A model generated the notes under the pieces. It had not been told where the DNA came from and ran no database searches. It worked only from the letters and a program-made list of their open reading frames with translations. Of a DNA stretch of 64,000 nt, positions 2,383 to 64,000 are shown one piece after another. Numbering within the stretch: the stretch's first letter is position 1; each line of letters opens with the position of its first letter. Both the position numbers and the translations under genes were made by a program. Source of the stretch: Rhizophagus irregularis (Eukaryota; Glomeromycota; Glomeromycetes; Glomerales; Glomeraceae); assembly GCF_026210795.1 (NCBI RefSeq), contig NC_089435.1, forward strand, positions 3,658,001 through 3,722,000, written 5' to 3'.

Positions 2383-5211
2383 TTACCAACTTAACCAATT
2401 TGTCCATACCAAAACTAAAATATAATTATTTGTATTTGGATTTTGAGATATTCCATATATATCATTATTTGCTCCATCCCATGATTTTGTTAAATATTTT
2501 TTAGCCTAAATATAAAGCAAAGTGAGAAATATATTAATATTATTAATAGTATTAAGGATATTTATAAAAATGTCATACCTCATTTATTAGAGAGTCAACA
2601 GAATTTTGTGAATTATGTAAATAATTTAAAGCGACTGTTTTAGTTGAATCTCTTGTATATTTATAATTATTTTTTCTTAAAATAAATGGACCATTCTCCC
2701 ATATTGCTGAATATACTGTTATAGAACCATTTTTTTTTATTTCATTAATTTCATAAAGTTGATTGTATGGTATCCATTCAAATACAATTTCATCAAAGTT
2801 ACTTATTTTTAATTGTATTTCTTGAATGAAATCATCAATTTTTTTATTTCCACTCATCGATGTAAAATTCCTTTGAACCAAAATATAGTCAGATGTATCA
2901 GGATTTTGAGATATTCCATATATTCTAAGAACTGATATGCCAAATATACTTGTCAAAAGCTTTCTAACCTGAATTATTAATGGAAAGATAGATAAATTGA
3001 GTTAGAAAAAAAAAAAATTAAAATATTTGTAGAAATGACTTACTTCATTTGTTAGAATTTCAATGTAATTTTGTGAGTTATGTAAATATTTTAAAAAAAC
3101 ATTTATATTTGCTCTACTTTTATACATGCCATAATAATCATCAACTACTATTGGACCATCCTTATATATTGCTGAATATATTGATATAGGGCCATCTTTG
3201 CTTATTTCTTTAATTTTATTAAACTGATTATATGGTATCCATTCAAATACTAAATCTTCTTCTTCAATGACTTTTAATTCCATTTCCTGGATGAAGTCAT
3301 CAATTTTTTCATTTCCGCTTGTCCATTCCATAACTAAGATATAATTATTTGTATATGGATTATGAGATATTCCGTATATATTACACATTGTTTTGTCAAG
3401 CATTTTTGTATAATATTTTTTAGCCTAAATATAAGACAAAGAGATAAATATACTATTAAAAGTATTAAGAATATTTAAAAATGTTATACCTCATTTATTA
3501 GAAAGTCAATAGAATTTTGTGAATTATGTAAATATTTCAAAGCAACTTTTTTATAGAAAGTATTTGTATATCCAGAATTATAATTATTGTAATAAATTGG
3601 ACCATCATTCCATCTCGCTGAATATACTGTTATAGGGCCATTTTTGCCTGTTCTTCTAGTTTCTCTAAACTGACAGTATGGTATCCATTCAAACACCACA
3701 TCATTTTTGTTATTGATTTTTAATTGCATTTCCTGAACAAAATCATCAATTTTTTCATTTCCACTTGCCCATGCCAGAACTAAAATATAATCATTTGTTT
3801 CTTGATTTTGAGATATTCCATATATATCACAAATTACTCTGTCAAGTATTTGTGTTGAATATTTTTTAGCCTAAATATAAGCAAAAGAGATAAATATATT
3901 ATATTAAAAGTATTAAGAAAATTTATAGATATGTCATACCTCATTTATTAGAAAGTCAATAGAATTTTGTGAGTTATGTAAATATTTTAAAGCGACTACT
4001 TTATTCGGATATCTCACATATTGTTTATTGTAAATATTGCAACATAATGGACCATCCTTCCATATTGCTGAATATATTGTTATAGAACCATTTTTGCCTA
4101 TTTCTTTAATTTTACCAAGTTGATTGAATGGTATCCATTCAAATGCAACATTACAATAATTATTCATTTTTAATTGCATTTTTTGAATGAAATCATCAAT
4201 TTTTTCATTTCCACTGTTCCAATTTGCTAAGTTTATGGAATTACTTTGAACTAAAATATAATCATTTGTATCTGGATTTTGAGATATTCCATACAGTGCA
4301 AGACATGTCTTATAATTTATTGAATACTTTTTGGTCTAGATATAAATAATAAAATAATAAGTATACTAAATTAAAAAAAAAGTATTTAAATATTTCAATG
4401 TTTTACCTCATTTATTAGAAAATCAATGGAATCTTGTGAGTTTTGGAAGCATTTTAAAGCAACATTTTTACTTGAATCTCTTTTATAATCATTCCAATAC
4501 TTCTTGTATAATGGACCATCCTTCCTTATTGCTGAATATATTATTATAGAACCATTTTTGTCTATCTCTTTAACTTCATCAAGTTGATTGTATGGTATCC
4601 ATTCAAATACAATATCATAAATATTATTTACTTTTAATTGCATTTCTTGAATGAAATCATCAATTTTTTCATTTCCACTGTTCCAATTTGCTAAGTTTAT
4701 GGAATTATCTTGAACTAAAATATAATCATTTGTATCTGGATTTTGAGATATTCCATATAATACAAGAAAATTATCATATTTTGTTGAATATTTTTTAGTC
4801 TAAATATAAACAAAGAAATAGTAAATATACTAAATTGAAAAAAAAGTATTTAAATACTTCAATATTTACCTCATTTACTAGAAAATTAATGGAATCCTGT
4901 GAGGTATGTAAGTATTTTAAGGCAACTTTTTTATTTGAACTCCTTACATATCTACGATACCAATATATTGGACCATCCTTCCATATTGCTGAATGAACTG
5001 TTGTAAGACCATTTTTGCTTGTTTCTTGAATTTTGTAAAACTGACTATATGGTATCCATTCAAATACTACATCATCTCTGTTAATGAATTTTAATTGCAT
5101 TTCTTGGATGAAGTTATCAATTTTTTCATTTTTACTGGCCCAACATATAAGATTTGTTTCTAAATATTCCAGAATGTTAGATATCTCTAAAGGATTTTCT
5201 TGGGGAAACAT
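2383..5211 (-). CDS. Exon-multiplied kinase N-lobe protein (six modules, no catalytic lobe)
   Basis: Seven exons: 5211-4870, 4799-4407, 4335-3940, 3870-3490, 3424-3044, 2968-2579 and 2505-2383. Introns are 65-75 bp with GT and AG ends. Every exon length is a multiple of three and every intron is phase 0, giving about 801 residues. Exons 1-6 each carry one module: a linker (IDDFIQEMQLK, then VFEWIPYNQ), a decayed glycine loop (GKNGSITVYSA type), a beta3 motif VALK, then NSQNSIDFLINE with the alpha-C glutamate. Exons 2-7 begin with a beta4-beta5 segment (IYGISQNPDTNDYILV type). This matches the N-lobe of the large tyrosine-kinase-like family of Rhizophagus. No HRD or DFG motif is present, and the lysine of module 6 is asparagine. 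The start is the ATG at 5211; upstream in-frame TTG codons are unlikely starts. A catalytically dead scaffold or binding protein is an inference; a decaying pseudogene is possible, though the frame is open throughout. Confidence 0.8.
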
Positions 5212-6818: not shown

Positions 6819-8291
6819 ATGGCGTGTCAACTTCCAGCTGATTGTTTAAATGATATTTTTGAATATTTAGAGGAAGATAAATTCGCTCTACATTCATGTC
6901 TATTAGTTAATCATCTTTGGTGTGAAATTTCTGTTAGAATTTTGTGGAGGAATATTTGGGATTTTAATCGTCAACAATGTTCATTAAAGGTGGCATCATC
7001 AATTCTTAGTACATTAATTGCTTGTCTTCCCAATGAGTCAAAAAGGCTCCTATATGATAATGATATTTTCATTTCAACTCCTACTTCAAAACCATTATTG
7101 TTTAATTATGCAGCATTTTGCAAAGTCATTTCAATTTATGAGTTTAATAGGATGATTGATAGTGTTTTCAAAGATGAACAATCTACTAATTTAAATGATA
7201 TAAATAATTTAGTTACAAATCAAATTATCAAAATGTTTGCAAACCAAATTTCTTCTTTGAAAAAATTGACCTATCACCATAATCATTATTATTACCTTAA
7301 TATTTCTTTTCCATATTTTCCTGGTGCGAGAGATCTTTCAGAATTATGTTGTAGTTCAAAACTTCCTTCTAATTTTTTTTACCAATTGTCTCAAATATGC
7401 CATAATTTACAATCAATTTCTATATCATTTGATGATGATGTTTCAAATGAATTAAAAGAATTAATTTCTTCACAGAATAATTTAAAAAAATTATCTTTAT
7501 CAGCTTTTGAGATAAGTTGGGCAAATATTATACCTGCTCTAACAAAACATTCTCATACAATAACAAAATTACAACTTTATGGTGGTAATGAAGAATTACC
7601 ACTTTCATTTCTCAGTTTATTCTTAAATTTACAAGAATTTATATTTTCATTCTTTCATGGAACAGAATTTGAAGATTTTAGAATGTTACAATATCCAAAA
7701 TTACAAGTTTTAAAAATTCCTTATCAATGTCCAAGACCTCAGTATATGATGAAATTTTTAGAAAATAATGGAAAAAACCTTAAAAAGTTTTATACAGATG
7801 AAAATAACAAAGATTTAAGTTTATCTATTGCTAAATTTTGTCCAAACCTTAAAAGTCTTTTCGTAATACTTAATAACGGTGAAATTGATATATTAAAAAC
7901 TATATTTATTAGTTGTCAATACTTAGAAAGTATTAAAATTTGGTGTGATAAAGGTAATTTTGGTGAATTTTTATCTGAAAAGGAGGTATTAGAAACTGTT
8001 GCAAAATATTCACCAAATAATTTTTGTGAATTAAAAATATACAATTGTTCAAATTCAGATGTATTTCCAGGTGATTTGGAATCATTTTTTATAAGCTGGG
8101 GAGAAAGAACACCAAAAAAATTGCTTTCATTAATAATTCTTGTGGATGATGCAGATTATTATTATGATTATATTAGTTCGGAAACTTTAGAAATAATAGG
8201 AAAATATGAAGATTTAGGTACTATTAAATTTTTGACTAAAAGTAATATTAATGAAGAAAAAGAGGAAGAAGATAACTATTATTATCATTAA
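6819..8291 (+). CDS. F-box/LRR-like protein, 490 aa
   Basis: Single-exon gene for a probable substrate-recognition subunit of an SCF ubiquitin ligase. An F-box spans residues 1-47: LPADCLNDIFEYLEED, then LHSCLLVNHLWCEISVRILW. The remainder has irregular leucine-rich segments such as LKKLSLSAFEI, ITKLQLYGG, LQEFIFSF and LKSLFVIL, ending in an acidic, tyrosine-rich tail. The Skp1-binding F-box and the LRR-like array are the usual layout of the very large Rhizophagus F-box family. The start is the ATG behind the poly-T tract, and the F-box begins directly there. A close full-length paralogue lies at 17796-19289. Substrates are unknown. Confidence 0.85.
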   Translation: MACQLPADCLNDIFEYLEEDKFALHSCLLVNHLWCEISVRILWRNIWDFNRQQCSLKVASSILSTLIACLPNESKRLLYDNDIFISTPTSKPLLFNYAAFCKVISIYEFNRMIDSVFKDEQSTNLNDINNLVTNQIIKMFANQISSLKKLTYHHNHYYYLNISFPYFPGARDLSELCCSSKLPSNFFYQLSQICHNLQSISISFDDDVSNELKELISSQNNLKKLSLSAFEISWANIIPALTKHSHTITKLQLYGGNEELPLSFLSLFLNLQEFIFSFFHGTEFEDFRMLQYPKLQVLKIPYQCPRPQYMMKFLENNGKNLKKFYTDENNKDLSLSIAKFCPNLKSLFVILNNGEIDILKTIFISCQYLESIKIWCDKGNFGEFLSEKEVLETVAKYSPNNFCELKIYNCSNSDVFPGDLESFFISWGERTPKKLLSLIILVDDADYYYDYISSETLEIIGKYEDLGTIKFLTKSNINEEKEEEDNYYYH

Positions 8292-14639: not shown

Positions 14640-15878
14640 ATGGAATTGAACACTAAATATCCAGTTGTTCTCTTAATGGGAAAAACAGGCAAGTTTTCGA
14701 TTTTTTCTTTGTATTTTTCTTACTCATAATTTTAAAAAAACATATCAGGTGCGGGAAAAAGCACTCTTGGAAATTTACTTCTTGGTGCACCACATAAAAA
14801 AGGACCTTTTGCTACCGGCTCACGAATGGTAAATGGTTATGTTCTATATATACTGCGACTATTTAAAATTAATTGTATTTAAGAATAAGGAAATGACGAA
14901 AATATAGGACTCTATCACACAAGAGTGTAAAGCAGAAACTATGTTAATTGACGACGTACCATATAACATTGTCGACACGCCTGGAATTCTTGACCCTAAC
15001 CGAGGTACTATTCCTATACTTAATGAAATTTCCAAGACTATCAATAAATGTGCTCATGGGGTTAAGGCTATCCTTATTGTTTCTGGTATGCAAAATCATG
15101 AAATAGCTTACTTTTTATTAACTCCGTGGGTTTGTATTTCTAGTTAATCAAAATTTTGGACTTCATAGAAGTCGGAAGGTTTACTGACGAGCAAAAAGAT
15201 GCTCTAAACCGAATAAGAAATTTCCTAGGAAAAGACGCAACAAATAATATTATATCAGTTCTTTCCCGCGCAGACAAAGATCAGACTGAAGATAGAAGTA
15301 TAATGCAAAGCGATTGGAATCAATCTTTTCGTTCTTTTATCCAAGGCATTGGAAACCGTTGGGGCATCTCTCCCAATCCTGAAATTTTTCCGGCTGGTGA
15401 AGAGACTCATAAAGTACGGTTAGGGGAAATCAAGAATTTAATCAGCAGTATACAAGGAGTTTACACCACTGAGCAACATGAGAAGTGCCAACGAGAACAA
15501 GCGGAAGCGAGGCGACGAAAAGAAGAGGATGAAAAAAGAGCAAAGCGGGAACACGATGAGAAATTAAAAGAAGATGCAAGAAGAGAAGCCGAAAGAGCCC
15601 ATCAACGTGAGTTTAACCAAATGCGACAAGAATATGAAAAACAGCATAGGCAAATATTGGAGAAAATGATTGAGTCGTTGCGTCGAGAAAAAGAAAACGA
15701 GCGTCAAGAAAGAGAAAAAGAGCGGCAAGAAGCAAGAGAACATCAAGAAAGAAGACGTCAAGAAGAAAGAGAACGTCAAGAAAGGGAACGTCAAGAAAGA
15801 AGACAACAAGAACTTAAAGACGGTATAATGTTTGCAGCGTCTGAAGCGCTTAAAATGGCTTTTTACGCCTTCATATAA
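14640..15878 (+). CDS. AIG1/IMAP-type GTPase with C-terminal coiled coil, 338 aa
   Basis: Exons 14640-14688, 14749-14828, 14908-15085 and 15169-15878 give 1017 nt in frame. The start ATG lies 13 codons before the P-loop GKTGAGKST (G1). DTPG (G3) is in exon 3. The AIG1 box LIVSEVGRFTDEQKDAL is formed across intron 3, and SRAD fits G4. The family consists of GTP-binding membrane-associated switches; a fungal role is not established. Beyond residue about 205 the protein is an Arg/Glu/Gln-rich coiled coil ending in a short hydrophobic segment (MFAASEALKMAFYAFI) that could contact a membrane. Intron 1 uses a GC donor (GCAAGT) and splits the P-loop codon. No lesion was found, so it is probably functional. 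Confidence 0.85.
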
Positions 15879-17795: not shown

Positions 17796-19289
17796 ATGTC
17801 TTGCCAACTAACAACTGACTGCTTAGATGAAATTTTTGAACATTTAGAGAATGATAAATCAACTTTACATTCATGTTTGTTAGTTAATCGTCTTTGGTGT
17901 AAAACTTCTGTAAGAATTTTATGGAGGAATATTTGGCGGTTTAAATATATTGTTTATCGTGAAAAACATCCATTGAAAGTAGCATCATCTATTCTTAGTA
18001 CATTAGTTGCTTGTCTTCCCAATGAATCAAAAGAGCTCTTATATAAGAATAAAATTTTTATTCAAACACCTACTTCAAAACCACCACTTTTTAATTATGT
18101 AAACTTTTGCAAAGTACTTTCAATTTATGAGATTGTTAAATTAGTTGAAAATGTCCTTAGTAATGAACCATCATCATCCGTTAATTCACTAAGTTTAAAA
18201 GATAGAAATTGTTTAGTAACAAATGAAATTTTCAAAATGCTTACAAACCAAATTTCTTCCTTGAAAAAATTAACTTACGACTATAATCAATTTATCCCTA
18301 AGTTTTCTTTCACTTATTTTCCTGGAGCGAAAGAACTTTCAGAATTACGTTGCAGTTCAGATATTCCTTCTGATTTTTTTTATCAGTTATCACAAATATG
18401 TCATAATTTACAAACAATATTTATAGAATTTCGTAATGATAATGTTTCAGATGAGTTAAAAGAATTTATTTCTTTACAGAACAATTTAAAAAATTTAACT
18501 TTAATAGCCAATATAAGTAGTTGGGCAAATATTATACCTGCTTTAACAAAACATTCTAATACAATCACAAAATTACATCTTCATGGTAATAATTATAATT
18601 TACCATTATCATTTGTCAATTTATTCACAAATTTAGAAGAAATTATGTTTTCATTCGATTATGGAGCAGATTTTGGTGATTTTGAAAATTTACAATTTGC
18701 CAATTTTCCTAAATTACAAATTTTAAAATTTCCTAAAAGATATCCAAAACCCGAATATGTAATGAAATTTTTAGAAAATAATGGAAAAAATCTCAAAACA
18801 TTTTATATATATGGAAGTGATAATGCTTTAAGTTTATCTATTGCTGATTTTTGTCCAAATCTTAGAAGTCTTTTCGTAGGAATTAATTATGAAAAAACAA
18901 ATATATTAAAAACTATATTAAGTAGTTGTCAATACTTAGAAAGTATTAAAGTTTGGTGTGGAAAAAGTTATTCAGGTGAAGAAAGAAGTTATTTATCTGA
19001 AAAGGAAGTATTTGAAACTATTGTAAATTATTCACCAAATAATTTTTGTGAATTAAAAATATATTATAGTTCAAATTCAGACTTTGTATCTCCAGTAGAT
19101 TTAGAATCATTTTTTATAAGCTGGAAAAATAGAATACCAAAAAAATTACTTAGATTAATAATTAACAAGAATAATAATATTGATGTAAATGAAGTAAACA
19201 AAAAAATAGCTGAAAAATATGAAAATTTAGGTATTATTAAATTTAGTATTGAAGCACTTTATGATGATGATGTTTTTTACTTGTTATAA
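17796..19289 (+). CDS. F-box/LRR-like protein, 497 aa, paralogue of 6819-8291
   Basis: A single exon with an N-terminal F-box (LTTDCLDEIFEHLENDKS, then CLLVNRLWCKTSVRILWR) followed by LRR-like segments (LKNLTLIANI, ITKLHLHGN, LQILKFP, LRSLFVGI, LESIKVWCG). It aligns with the upstream paralogue along its whole length, including YLESIKVWC and YSPNNFCELKIYY near the C-terminus. A probable SCF adaptor with unknown substrate. Similarity extends into the promoter, so the pair arose by segmental or gene duplication; 9.5 kb of unrelated DNA now separates them. No lesion was seen. Confidence 0.85.
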   Translation: MSCQLTTDCLDEIFEHLENDKSTLHSCLLVNRLWCKTSVRILWRNIWRFKYIVYREKHPLKVASSILSTLVACLPNESKELLYKNKIFIQTPTSKPPLFNYVNFCKVLSIYEIVKLVENVLSNEPSSSVNSLSLKDRNCLVTNEIFKMLTNQISSLKKLTYDYNQFIPKFSFTYFPGAKELSELRCSSDIPSDFFYQLSQICHNLQTIFIEFRNDNVSDELKEFISLQNNLKNLTLIANISSWANIIPALTKHSNTITKLHLHGNNYNLPLSFVNLFTNLEEIMFSFDYGADFGDFENLQFANFPKLQILKFPKRYPKPEYVMKFLENNGKNLKTFYIYGSDNALSLSIADFCPNLRSLFVGINYEKTNILKTILSSCQYLESIKVWCGKSYSGEERSYLSEKEVFETIVNYSPNNFCELKIYYSSNSDFVSPVDLESFFISWKNRIPKKLLRLIINKNNNIDVNEVNKKIAEKYENLGIIKFSIEALYDDDVFYLL

Positions 19290-34323: not shown

Positions 34324-36109
34324 TTACGATCGAAATATTCCGAAATAATACAGGATCGTAAATATACCGAAGCATTACGATCGAAATATTCCGAAATAAT
34401 ACGTGATCATAAATGTTCCGAAGCATTACGGTCAAAATATTCCGTAATAATACGTGATCGCAAATGTTTCGAAACATTACGATCAAAATATTCTGTAATA
34501 ATACGTGATCGTAAATGTTCTGAAGCATTACGATCGAAATATTCCGTAATAATACGTGATCGAAAATGTTCCGAAGCATTACGATCGAAATATTCTGTAA
34601 TAATACGATATCGCAATTGTTCCGAAGCATTACGATCGAAATATTCTGTAATAATACGTGATCGCAATTGTTCCGAAGCATTACGATCGAAATATTCCGT
34701 AATAATACGTGATCGAAAATGTTCTGAAGCATTACGATCGAAATATTCCGTAATAATATGATATCGCAATTGTTCCGAAGCATTACGATCGAAATATTCC
34801 GTAATAATACGTGATCGTAAATGTTTCGAAACATTACGATCAAAATATTCCGTAATAATACGATATCGTAAATGTTTCGAAGCATTACGATCGAAATATT
34901 CCCGTAATAATACGTGATCGTAAATGTTTCGAAACATTACGATCGAAATATTCCGTAATAATACGTGATCGTAAATGTTTCGTAACATTACGGTCAAAAT
35001 ATTCCGTAATAATACGTGATCGCAATTGTTCCGAAGCATTACGATCGAAATATTCCATAATAATACGTGATCGTAAATGTTTCGAAACATTACGATCGAA
35101 ATATTCCGTAATAATACGATATCGTAAATGTTTTGAAGCATTACGATCGAAATATTCCGTAATAATACGTGATCGTAAATGTTTCGAAACATTACGATCG
35201 AAATATTCCGTAATAATACGTGATCGTAAATGTTTCGAAACATTACGGTCAAAATATTCCGTAATAATACGTGATCGCAATTGTTTCGAAGCATTACGAT
35301 CGAAATATTCCGTAATAATACGTGATCGAAAATGTTCCGAAGCATTACGATCGAAATATTCCGTAATAATATGATATCGCAATTATTCCGAAGCATTACG
35401 ATCGAAATATTCCGTAATAATACGTGATCGTAAATGTTTCGAAACATTACGATCGAAATATTCTGTAATAATACGATATCGTAAATGTTTCGAAGCATTA
35501 CGATCGAAATATTCTGTAATAATACGTGATCGTAAATGTTTCGAAACATTACGATCGAAATATTCCGGAATAATACATGATCGTAAATGTTTCGAAACAT
35601 TACGGTCAAAATATTTCGTAGAATTACGATATTGTAAATGTTCCGAAGCATTATGATCGAAATATTCCGTAATAATACGTGATCGTAAATGTTTCGAAAC
35701 ATTACGATCGAAATATTCTGTAATAATACGTGATCGTAAATGTTTCGAAACATTACGGTCAAAATATTCCGTAGAATTACGATATTGTAAATGTTCTGAA
35801 GCATTACGATCGAAATATTCCATAATAATACGTGATCGTAAATGTTTCAAAACATTACGATCGAAATATTCCGTAATAATATGATATCGCAATTGTTCCG
35901 AAGCATTACGATCGAAATATTCCGTAATAATACGATATCGTAAATATTCCGAAGCATTACGATCAAAATATTCCGTAAAATTATGATATCGCAATTGTTC
36001 CAAAGCATTACGATCGAAATATTCCGTAATAATACGTGATCGTAAATATTCCAAAGCATCGAAGCATTACGGTCAAAATATTCCGTAATAATACGTGATC
36101 GTAAATATT
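34324..36109. repeat. 51-bp minisatellite, about 35 copies
   Basis: Head-to-tail units of 51 bp, for example ACGATCGAAATATTCCGTAA, TAATACGTGATCGTAAATGT, TCCGAAGCATT. Because 51 is divisible by three, the minus strand stays open in two frames for hundreds of codons with a 17-residue period; these frames are by-products. Units vary at set positions (GTGATCGTAAATG, GATATCGCAATTG, GTGATCGAAAATG) and are palindrome-rich: ATGTTTCGAAACAT and CGATCG are perfect. The region 34214-34323 looks like degenerate flanking units. Confidence 0.9.
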
Positions 36110-36727: not shown

Positions 36728-38112
36728 TTATTTTTTATATTGTTTTTTTAATCGCCTCATTCTTTCTTTTGTCTCTTCATCCGTACTACTTATATAAATT
36801 CTTCCGCCTTCCTCCTCGTCTTCTTCTCTTATCTCGTTTTCTTCCTCTTCTTGTAATACTTCTTCTGCTTCGTCAGCTACTTCTTCTGCTTCATCAACTT
36901 CTGCTGCTTCATCAACTCCTTTGTTTGTCTCTTCAGCTTCTTAGGAAGCTTCTATTTCGTCATTATCGGAATATGAATAATTATCCTTACTTGTAATTTT
37001 TTTCTAAGAAGTAAAACAAAATTAGTTTTTAAATATTACTATTTATTCAAATTTCTAATGCTTACCAAATTCTTCGTTAAAACGGGTTTTATGACAGATT
37101 CTGTAACCTGAATATGTAAATTTTTCGGATTTAAAATAATTTCACAAATACTTATTGCATATGCAATTTGCATATTAGATAATTGATTTTTGCCTTTAAG
37201 TATTTGAAGGATTCTCGACATATATGTCTCCGGATCCGGATTCTTGATTTTTTTGAATAAATTACCGTAACAATTTTTCACGGCTGGGCTCCCTTTCCAT
37301 TTTCTTATTTCGCTTTCCTTTAATGCCGTGTTTACGGCAGGGATTGTGGGAAGGTTAAATTCTTTAAAAACGACATACATTATGTCTTTCACTTTAGAAG
37401 CTAAAGAACCCCGGGCACTACGATGTTTAGCTAGAAGCTAAAGAAAAGATTTTAAATTTAAATTTCAATAAATTAATGTAAAATCGTAATTTCTCAAAAC
37501 TTACGGGAGAAGCAATATTTTTTTCATAAAATATAATCCATTTATCATATCTTTTAAACCGTTTAATAAAATCATCGTAGTTTTCATTCATATAATTATT
37601 AGTGAACTCTCAAAGTTCATCGGGGGTAGGATATATTGAAGCTTCAAGTAACTTTTTAGCAACTTCTTTGATTATTTTCTATAATCAAAAATATAATGAT
37701 TTAATGAGGAATTACTACTAAATGTTCAACCATGATTTACGTAAATATTTGTATTTTTGGGTCTTACCTTTATATATTCTTCATCCCCTTGATTACTATC
37801 ATTATTTTTATCGACCGATTCTTCTACTTTCGATACTCTGTTTTCTAAAGCCTTTTGGTTGGAAATAATTATATCCAGTTTGGATAAAATTTTTGTATTC
37901 TGGCGCAATATTTTCGTTAAAGCTTCTTTATAACAGTAGAATATAAATAATATAAATAATAATATATTAGTAATAATTATTTTTATTTTTCAAAAATATA
38001 TAATTTAACCAACCATTAATTAATTCATCGGAAGATTCGTCGGTTTTTCTCCGTTTGTCTACATGCTCGACTGTTTCAGTGTTTTTTTTTTATTATTATT
38101 ATTTTTGTCCAT
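36728..38112 (-). pseudogene. KWK-family gene, diverged minus-strand member with lesions
   Basis: Exons, reading leftwards: about 38112-38014, 37925-37768, 37678-37505, 37437-37066 and 37003-36941 or to 36728. Layout and junction phases mirror the four tandem copies at 44.8-54.9 kb: a charged N-terminus, a coiled-coil exon (LRQNTKILSKLDIIISNQKA), an exon with ASIYPTPDEL and DKWIIFYEKNI, then the longest exon with RSARGSLASKVKDIMYVVF, IRKWKGSPAVKNCYGNLF and AYAISICEIILNP. The last exon is acidic. Lesions: TGA within exon 3 after PTPDEL, TAA at 36941-36943 before a further 70-odd open acidic codons, and an A10 tract in exon 1 whose length breaks the frame. Function unknown. It is divergent from the Plavaka-type transposase. 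Confidence 0.6.
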
Positions 38113-62051: not shown

Positions 62052-64000
62052 ATGTCTGGTAACTATGCCAAGAGAGGCCGTGGAAGTCATAACCCTAACA
62101 GTAGGAAAGCTTCCCGTCAAGAACGAAAAAATAATAACAACTCCGATAATTCAAGCTCCGATGGTGAAAACACTATCCAGCAGAAACGTAATCGTACGAT
62201 TACCGAAAATTCTATGGAAGAAGACTACGTTGCCGATGACCAGACGGCTGACGTTGGATTAGATGGACCTTCCTCTTCTCCTCAACAAAATATCTCTGGC
62301 GAAAATACTTTGGCCTCCTCCCCGAAAAATCTGCTGCGCCAACTGCGCCCAGTCACGTCGCGTCTTCTGGAAATGTGGACGCGTCCATGCATGCACCTTC
62401 AAACAAAGACTTGCAACAACCCCCTAACGCGTCGCCCAATTTGGATACTAATGGTGCTCCTGATGGCGATCAAACCCCAGATCCAGTGGTGACCTTTGCC
62501 ATAACCAGAGATGATTTTCAGGCTGCGGCTGCGCCGAATGCTGCCCCTGAATCACTCAAGAAATTCCCTACCAATAAAGCCCTTATTGAGGCTGTGAATA
62601 ACCTTTTCTTAGAAACGTACGAGTCATTCACTGGAAAAGCTCGTATGACAGGTTCTGGTGAGGCTAAACGCCTCGTTATCCACTTCCATACCGCTGAAGC
62701 ACGCGATCTGTGCGTTAGTTCCTCTCATCCTGAGTTCCCTGACTTGATTTTTCATGCCCATGACCCTCGCCAACTCCGATCCAATGAAGATCTCCAGGCT
62801 ATCCAAGTTACCGATATCCCTTTCTTTATCAAAAAGGACAACCTCATGGCCTATTTCAAAAAATTTGGTAATATTACCTCTTGTCGCCTCTTCTCCAGGC
62901 CTAATGCTAAAGTCCAGCAAGCCCGTATTGTGTATGATCACGCCGATTCAATTGCTCGTTTTACCGACCAATGGGCTGTTTACTGTTTCTCCACCTGTCT
63001 CCGAATTACTCCATGTTTCTATACTGTGGATCAAAAGGCTGCGCGCCATCAATACGTTGCCACCCTCACTCAACTTCCTCCCAATGTTAAGGATATCAAC
63101 TTGGCTCCTCTTACACGCGATCTTGGTGCAAAAGCTGTCAATGTTCCTCTTTCTTTAAATTCCTACAAACCCAAAAGATGGGCCTATGTCACCTTCAACT
63201 CCCAAGAAACCATGGATGCCGCTATGGAACAGACTGTTAGCTTCCAAGGCAAAGTGCTTTTCTGGTCCTCCCCCGATAATACTAATAAACTTTGTCACAG
63301 ATGTGGCAAACTCGGTTGTGCTCCTAATTTTTGCCCACTCAAACAAACCAGAGGTAGAAGCCGCACTCGCGACCCTGTTGCAAAACTCAAAGAACGATTC
63401 AATGTTAATCAACCTCGCTCCAATTCTAATATTGCCAATGCACGTTCTCGCTCTCGATCTCGCTCCAAATCTAAAGATCGATCTGCTTCCAATTCTGGAC
63501 GAGCCAATAACGCTTCCCATGACCGCACTAATAATGATAATAGTAATCATAACAAACCCCCTCCCAATACTTCTCAACGTGCCCGCCATAATAGTAAAGA
63601 ACGATCTGTCTCCTTTTCTTCCTCCTCTCGTTTTACAGCACGTCCCTTACCCTGACAAACTCCTAACTCTGCATTATCTCCTGATGATGCTAACAACATT
63701 CTAAACCTTTTACGAGAATTACAATGTGAAGTTGCTAACTTTCACAAACGCATCTCCGCTCTTGAACTTGCTGACCAACGGATGACTCGTATTGAATCAC
63801 ACCTTGGCCTTGATCCACTCCCTATACCCAATGAACCTGAACCGGACCTCATGCAAGAAGATGCCCCTGTAACTCATGTTCCTTTTAATATTCTGTCTTC
63901 CGCTAAATCTTCGCTGCCTCCCAAAAGTATTTTAACGCGACCTTCGCCTACATTCACTATTGTTCCTGACACATCACCTCCTTCTTCTCACCTTTCTCCA
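62052..64000 (+). pseudogene. LINE (non-LTR retrotransposon) ORF1, lesioned, runs off the window
   Basis: From ATG 62052 the basic/Ser-rich start (MSGNYAKRGRGSHNPNSRKA) leads to a frame change near the C run at 62320-62323, where one C appears to be missing. The main frame then continues from about 62325 to 63655. It contains an RRM-like region (LQAIQVTDIPFFIKKDNLMA, YFKKFGNITSCRLFSR), a second RRM-like segment (RWAYVTFNSQETMDAAME), a zinc-knuckle-like CHRCGKLGCAPNFCP, and an Arg/Ser-rich tail. After the TGA at 63653 the same frame stays open to the window end (SPDDANNILNLLRELQCE, then a proline-rich stretch). ORF1 proteins bind the element RNA. Reverse transcriptase would lie beyond the window. 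The region is clearly richer in G and C than its surroundings. Confidence 0.65.

Follow-up and report, generated by a model that had tools for sequence, protein, structure and literature searches.

A tandem chain of kinase N-lobe exons in Rhizophagus irregularis, read as a truncated member of a genome-wide kinase family

What is a gene that repeats one half of a kinase domain six times and has no other half? The question is raised by a gene on the minus strand (5211..2383) of a 64,000-nucleotide stretch of the Rhizophagus irregularis genome (C7:3658001-3722000, here called the window), which was compared with 146,748,485 bases in 32 contigs. We consider it, with a probability of about 0.68, to belong to a family of TKL-type kinase genes spread over the genome and to have been truncated at its 3' end; in this family, a chain of degenerate N-lobes would form a non-catalytic arm of the kinase at the end of the protein.

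The gene consists of seven exons and six introns, and its exons (114+131+132+127+127+130+40 aa) join to 801 codons followed by a stop. Strands and helix (beta1-beta5, alphaC) are named here after the general kinase fold. Exon 1 (4870..5211, minus strand like all features of the gene; 114 aa) contains the start Met, the N-terminus common to most other arrays with its NI..YL..N stretch (MFPQENPLEISNILEYLETN), a linker and beta1-alphaC of N-lobe 1. Exon 2 (4407..4799, 131 aa) continues with beta4-beta5 of N-lobe 1, a linker and beta1-alphaC of N-lobe 2. Exons 3 (3940..4335, 132 aa; nearest to exon 2 within the window), 4 (3490..3870, 127 aa; the query that retrieves the family), 5 (3044..3424, 127 aa) and 6 (2579..2968, 130 aa) are likewise full units, and exon 7 (2383..2505, 40 aa) encodes beta4-beta5 of N-lobe 6, breaks off within the linker and ends with the stop. 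The six introns (4800..4869, 4336..4406, 3871..3939, 3425..3489, 2969..3043 and 2506..2578) are all GT-AG, in phase 0 and 65-75 nt long by exon coordinates; introns 2, 3 and 4 contain in-frame stops and intron 5 contains one. Exons 2, 4, 5 and 6 are 58-73% identical to exon 3, and a direct-repeat search found a 300-nt repeat in six copies at a spacing of 446-465. The sequence-only reading of this gene had described lengths divisible by three, six phase-0 introns of similar size and a frame kept open over seven exons, all of which we confirmed. Its six homologous exons hold for beta1-alphaC, which is present in exons 1 to 6, but the complete units number five, exon 1 being without beta4-beta5 and exon 7 being cut off. 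A chance repeat as the source of the array was ruled out by splice, frame and family evidence: it is not a serious candidate because six stretches of 114-132 codons are open in very AT-rich DNA and the exon recurs throughout the genome.

The kinase nature of the unit is not apparent from Pfam, as no kinase match (PF07714 or PF00069) rose above the cut-off for the seven single exons or the 801-aa product. The only family above the cut-off for the product was the phage family PF10653 (29.9 vs 27 bits), which covered 28 linker residues and was taken as a chance match in a repetitive protein. We therefore rely on an internal N-lobe profile made from 194 spliced N-lobes of 20 loci, in which the end of one unit was joined to the start of the next. 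Three ordinary kinases of the genome aligned with this profile in colinear order through the splice junction (E 1e-24, 4e-24 and 1e-15, with the search space set to 100 and three of the 13 fetched kinases used). Since the alignment runs through the junction, the domain spans the intron, and each exon combines the closing part of one N-lobe with the opening part of its successor. In ordinary kinases of this genome, an intron lies directly after the alphaC Glu, their first exon ending past alphaC and their second starting before beta4, which accounts for a unit that is out of register with the domain, as had been proposed from the sequence. In a genome search with PF07714 (145 of 4,199 candidates scored; at least 147 matches), most of the 147 matches listed began at model position ~50-73. 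The predicted structure of one exon (A2) reached a pLDDT of 65.6 in the best model and 34-40 in the other four, and Foldseek found no PDB match at E <= 0.001 for it (best 0.29); structure thus carries no weight here and lends no support to the idea of contacts discussed below.

The window product is accordingly six kinase N-lobes in tandem without a C-lobe. Read from the letters, all six have K-[ND]-G-[SPL] at the glycine loop, which is degenerate, while the beta3 Lys is present in five of the six (exon 6 has Asn, VALN) and the alphaC Glu in all. Inspection by eye of the 801 aa found no HRD or DFG motif, in agreement with the sequence-only reading. No C-lobe hidden beside the array scored above 40 bits on either strand of C7:3651800-3667000, and a relaxed search gave one stray match of 3.7 bits on the opposite strand. 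The product is not a pseudokinase, which is defined by a bilobal fold, as it has N-lobes only and no C-lobe was found, nor a tandem kinase protein, which is defined by at least two whole domains, as no whole kinase was found in the window.

Several other features lie in the window. Two long open frames (6819-8288 and 17799-19286) resemble each other on inspection; an F-box-like match below the threshold (E 7e-05) was obtained for the first and none for the second. At 15144-15875, an AIG1-family match that stays below the threshold (E 7e-06) precedes a charged tail, and a 51-nt tandem repeat at 34324-36106 comprises 34.8 copies with several frames open on both strands. Judged by eye, four open frames on the plus strand (45554, 48629, 51606 and 54308; 124-131 aa), ~3 kb apart, are very much alike, and a more distant look-alike lies at 37037-37437 on the minus strand; the one of them that was tested had no Pfam match. 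The open frame at 62252-63652 contains two RRM stretches (E 1.8e-09) and, on inspection, a CCHC-like knuckle; it is perhaps the first frame of a retroelement.

The exon recurs across the genome, and the exon-array origin proposed for this gene is supported. Exon 4 retrieved at least 150 matches, 149 of the 150 listed being free of stops, in at least 49 clusters on at least 15 contigs (37 clusters with two or more matches listed), and a unit of the C20 array used as a query again gave at least 150 matches (148 of the 150 listed without a stop). Contig C16 holds 31 of the 49 clusters between 2.39 and 4.70 Mb, a strong regional concentration. We examined 27 array loci including the window, 20 at first and seven further ones, and called their ends with small profiles of three segments (linker to alphaC, beta4-beta5 and C-lobe). 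Among the first 20, 17 run into a kinase C-lobe and three do not; six of the seven added ones reach a C-lobe and the seventh runs off its sequence piece. Hence 23 of the 26 arrays with a readable 3' end lead into one kinase C-lobe, and three, the window included, do not. The shared first exon (NI..YL..N) was recognized by eye in 15 of the first 20 loci and is absent in C10, C20, C24, C16:4691200 and C7:1447600. Most examined genes of the family thus consist of a common first exon, 6 to 36 N-lobes and one kinase C-lobe at the end. The longest chain, at C20:1702900-1724500 (L009+L010+L042+L046), has 36 N-lobes followed by one kinase and contains many near-identical units. At C10:1168500-1176500 (L008), an extra kinase C-lobe (167 bits) directly precedes the array on its strand and is connected to the array's first exon by a continuous open frame.

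The spliced terminal kinase matches PF07714 (E 3.4e-42), and in a comparison with the PDB its matches, named here from the best 60 of 110, were mostly of the TKL group, Roco4 coming first and being followed by, e.g., EGFR, TAK1, MAP3K9, CSK, B-Raf, KSR and RIPK1. The HxD Asp, read from the letters, is kept in 22 of the 23 terminal kinases. Three of the 23 look damaged: one is without the HRD stretch (C2:765000), and two (C16:2394300 and C16:2611200) are split by frame changes, with overlapping frames and no intron in between, which could be assembly errors. The three arrays without a kinase (window, C9 and C11) end in three different ways. A second class of units, with a CxxC motif in a cysteine-rich stretch between beta5 and the linker, gave at least 150 matches in at least 69 clusters, 41 of them with two or more. 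All four genes of this class that were inspected (L026, L035, L057 at C5:3922800-3929000 and L058 at C14:4774800-4781000) end in a complete kinase. They retain more of the ordinary kinase N-terminus and look like an intermediate step.

The units next to the kinase differ from the rest of the chain. A tree of 276 unit exons placed all 22 terminal units in a single clade (support 0.939). Its sole extra member is unit 11 of C11, an array that has no C-lobe and ends with this unit. As this last unit is of the terminal type, we conclude that the C11 array has lost its kinase. The GxG position is Gly in 22/22 terminal units and Asn in 228 of the 254 internal ones (unit 11 of C11 is included in these 254), the glycine being replaced in at least 246 of the latter. 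Other residues of the core persist in both groups: the beta3 Lys in 22/22 terminal and 241/254 internal units, and the alphaC Glu in 21/22 and 223/254, respectively. A Trp before beta1 is found in 253/254 internal units, and some W, G and A positions are nearly invariant among them. At the level of sequence, the internal units are shown to be a separate lineage in which the GxG glycine was lost and core residues were kept. Nucleotide binding by the chain, suggested for the window product before its relatives were known, is thought unlikely, given the replaced glycine and the missing C-lobe.

The arrays suggest a route by which such genes could have arisen. The exon boundaries imply that a phase-0 intron already followed the alphaC Glu in the ancestral kinase gene. 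The fused exon (beta4-beta5, linker, beta1-alphaC) would then have come from a tandem duplication in which beta5 was joined, at its end, to the linker that precedes beta1, and unequal exchange probably multiplied this exon, in many cases by several units in one event. In 12 of the 27 arrays, the window array not being one of them, units 96-100% identical to one another occur at lags of 1 to 11, as would be expected if blocks of units were exchanged unequally; only five pairs between arrays are that alike. The pairing of RAF with KSR takes place through the N-lobes. The chain may act in cis as a multivalent, non-catalytic arm of the end kinase, making contacts via the N-lobe or alphaC with kinases of the same type or with different partners, and the variable beta2-beta3 loop might give each unit a contact of its own.

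Constraint was estimated with neutral rates from introns in 107 nearest pairs of the first 20 loci. The ratio w was 0.63 overall and 0.49-0.58 in five core regions, 0.40 in the terminal C-lobe exon (seven pairs) and 1.63 [1.22-2.20] in the beta2-beta3 loop (the 70 of the 107 pairs with an equal gap pattern). In 400 sampled, more distant pairs between arrays, w was 2.01 for the loop, 0.91 [0.83-1.00] for alphaC and 0.74 for beta4-beta5; at this distance, constraint is almost absent from alphaC and weak in beta4-beta5. The codon model applied to the loop of single arrays was unusable (omega from 0.14 to 50, several values exactly 1.0 and one missing), so that our statement on the loop depends on pair counts and is worded with care: the loop appears to evolve at or above the neutral rate, positive selection not being proven. 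NG86 ratios (0.69-1.47 for pairs within the window array and 0.61 for 90 pairs taken together) serve as background only, as they are taken to be biased by AT-rich third positions. Without selection, substitutions alone would leave ~12.7 of the 107 pairs open; as only open units had supplied these pairs, broken units are the proper standard of comparison, and there are ~8 of them among some 250 in the 20 loci, in addition to four fragments in the seven added loci, one of them cut by the end of a sequence piece.

Arrays that lack a kinase tend towards weaker constraint on the core. In the codon model for core columns, the window array has the highest omega (0.54) of the 26 arrays with a known end, and the other kinase-less arrays have 0.52 (C9) and 0.43 (C11). 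The 20 arrays with an intact kinase lie at 0.20-0.50, so that the ranges overlap (intact C4 0.496, C16:3157200 0.441). The one-sided Mann-Whitney test of the three kinase-less against the intact arrays gave p = 0.006 (0.0098 in the first 20 loci alone), a value to be read with the facts that the contrast was noticed before it was tested and that each of the six later additions had an intact kinase, which enlarged one side only. Because split kinases may be assembly errors, the test was run with and without the damaged kinases; when these three arrays (omega 0.53, 0.362 and 0.215, the last two within the intact range) were added, p was 0.024 (0.045 in the first 20 loci alone), and the arrays share a history, so that tests across them are not fully independent. 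The omega of old modules also mixes the time before and after the loss of the kinase. An omega of 1 was rejected for all three kinase-less arrays (2dlnL 9.4 for the window, 16.0 for C9 and 10.0 for C11). Counting within arrays ranked these three and one damaged locus at the top of 20 (window array 0.88, C11 0.81, C9 0.76, and C2:765000 with its HRD deleted 0.76), and the core count of the window units against their nearest outside units was in mid-field (0.62). The sequence-only reading had taken a dN/dS near 1 among the modules as a sign against a retained protein; the counts come close to this within the window (w 0.96; 0.71 against the nearest outside units), whereas the codon model rejects it, so that the sign is seen in part.

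These data bear on what the window gene and its relatives may be doing. A functional protein without a kinase, acting as a multivalent decoy that binds kinase partners without binding nucleotide, would fit seven open exons with good splice sites, an omega that is still below 1 and the existence of two other kinase-less arrays. However, a chain selected to stand alone and titrate kinases, as proposed earlier for the window gene, is at odds with the C-lobe at the end of 23 of 26 arrays. The three kinase-less arrays also end differently, the window's in mid-linker, omega is raised in them, and C11 with its terminal-type last unit points to the loss of a kinase, which together make the decoy quite improbable. 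Doubt is stronger still about the arrays as a splicing device yielding chains of varied length or kinases with different N-lobes. Each full exon is symmetric, starting with beta4-beta5 and ending with beta1-alphaC, so any of them could be skipped and the chain would still be made of whole N-lobes; the boundaries are uniformly in phase 0, with an in-frame GA[AG]/GT donor at 221 of 248 junctions and an in-frame AG (permissive range) at 248 of 248, and 186 of 188 short introns contain an in-frame stop. The GxG residues, Gly in all terminal and mostly Asn in internal units, nevertheless make a swap of catalytic N-lobes unlikely, and we regard the device as very improbable.

The arrays might also be functionless by-products of tandem duplication of DNA, their frame being kept only for the sake of the terminal kinase. 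Almost identical units that return after 1 to 11 positions, an overall w of about 0.6, the broken units and the damaged-looking kinases in 3 of 23 genes would be expected in this case, but the strong difference between core (0.49-0.58) and loop (1.63), the almost invariant W, G and A positions of internal units and the separation of terminal and internal units in the tree speak against it, and we find it unlikely. The same consideration touches the kinase-arm reading, since open internal frames could persist only because a stop would remove the kinase; the pattern among sites argues against this as the whole story. We prefer the window gene as a member of the kinase family with a degenerate N-lobe chain, and read it as truncated because it ends in mid-linker. 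With no kinase and weaker constraint, this copy is most likely on the way out, and a residual decoy role is possible for it.

The kinase expansion of R. irregularis has been reported (PMC6123716, PMC8647823, PMC4219462, PMC10234402), with 2,533 kinase genes in an assembly of 32 chromosomes and 146,773,001 bp (PMC10234402). The expanded TKL/PF07714 kinases are of the same class as the terminal kinase of the arrays; the window product differs from them in having neither a C-lobe nor a Pfam kinase match. As far as their accessible portions go, these papers give gene counts, motifs and methylation, not N-lobe chains (PMC6123716, PMC10234402, PMC8647823, PMC4219462), MLKL-like families are mentioned in PMC8778642, and the word kinase is absent from PMC7550596 and PMC8786786; chains of N-lobes appear in none of these portions. 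At title and abstract level, mostly outside subscription journals and supplements, no account of N-lobe arrays was found; this is not proof of absence, and the family is apparently undescribed.

Plant tandem kinase proteins join whole bilobal domains. JAK is a pseudokinase-kinase pair in which the degenerate part acts in cis. The accessible parts of the reports on plant Yr15 and Pm24 (PMC6170490, PMC6997164) likewise describe kinase and pseudokinase domains in one chain, whereas here only N-lobes repeat, 6 to 36 times, from one fused exon. The model of a degenerate part acting in cis on an active kinase is borrowed from GCN2, as described in the available text of PMC4014428; GCN2 and JAK have a single pseudokinase domain, in contrast to an array of half domains, for which action in cis would hold by analogy. 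The WNG kinases of Toxoplasma, according to the accessible part of PMC6442604, are also without the glycine loop in the N-lobe, but they are active, and the internal array units have no C-lobe.

If many of the expanded kinases of R. irregularis are N-lobe chains capped by a single kinase, kinome counts and Pfam searches see only the ends of these proteins. The family presents half a domain turned into a repeat, with a pre-existing phase-0 intron as a plausible route, and its arrays with and without a kinase are a natural test of what the chain is for. Beyond this, we tentatively suggest, as a possibility that is still doubtful, that the N-lobe may have become a free, chain-forming repeat domain with hundreds of units in this genome, and that its arrays, which vary in length and precede a kinase, may serve as a set of recognition arms that unequal exchange keeps rebuilding and that feed kinase signalling in this arbuscular mycorrhizal fungus, e.g. 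in the sensing of partners or self.
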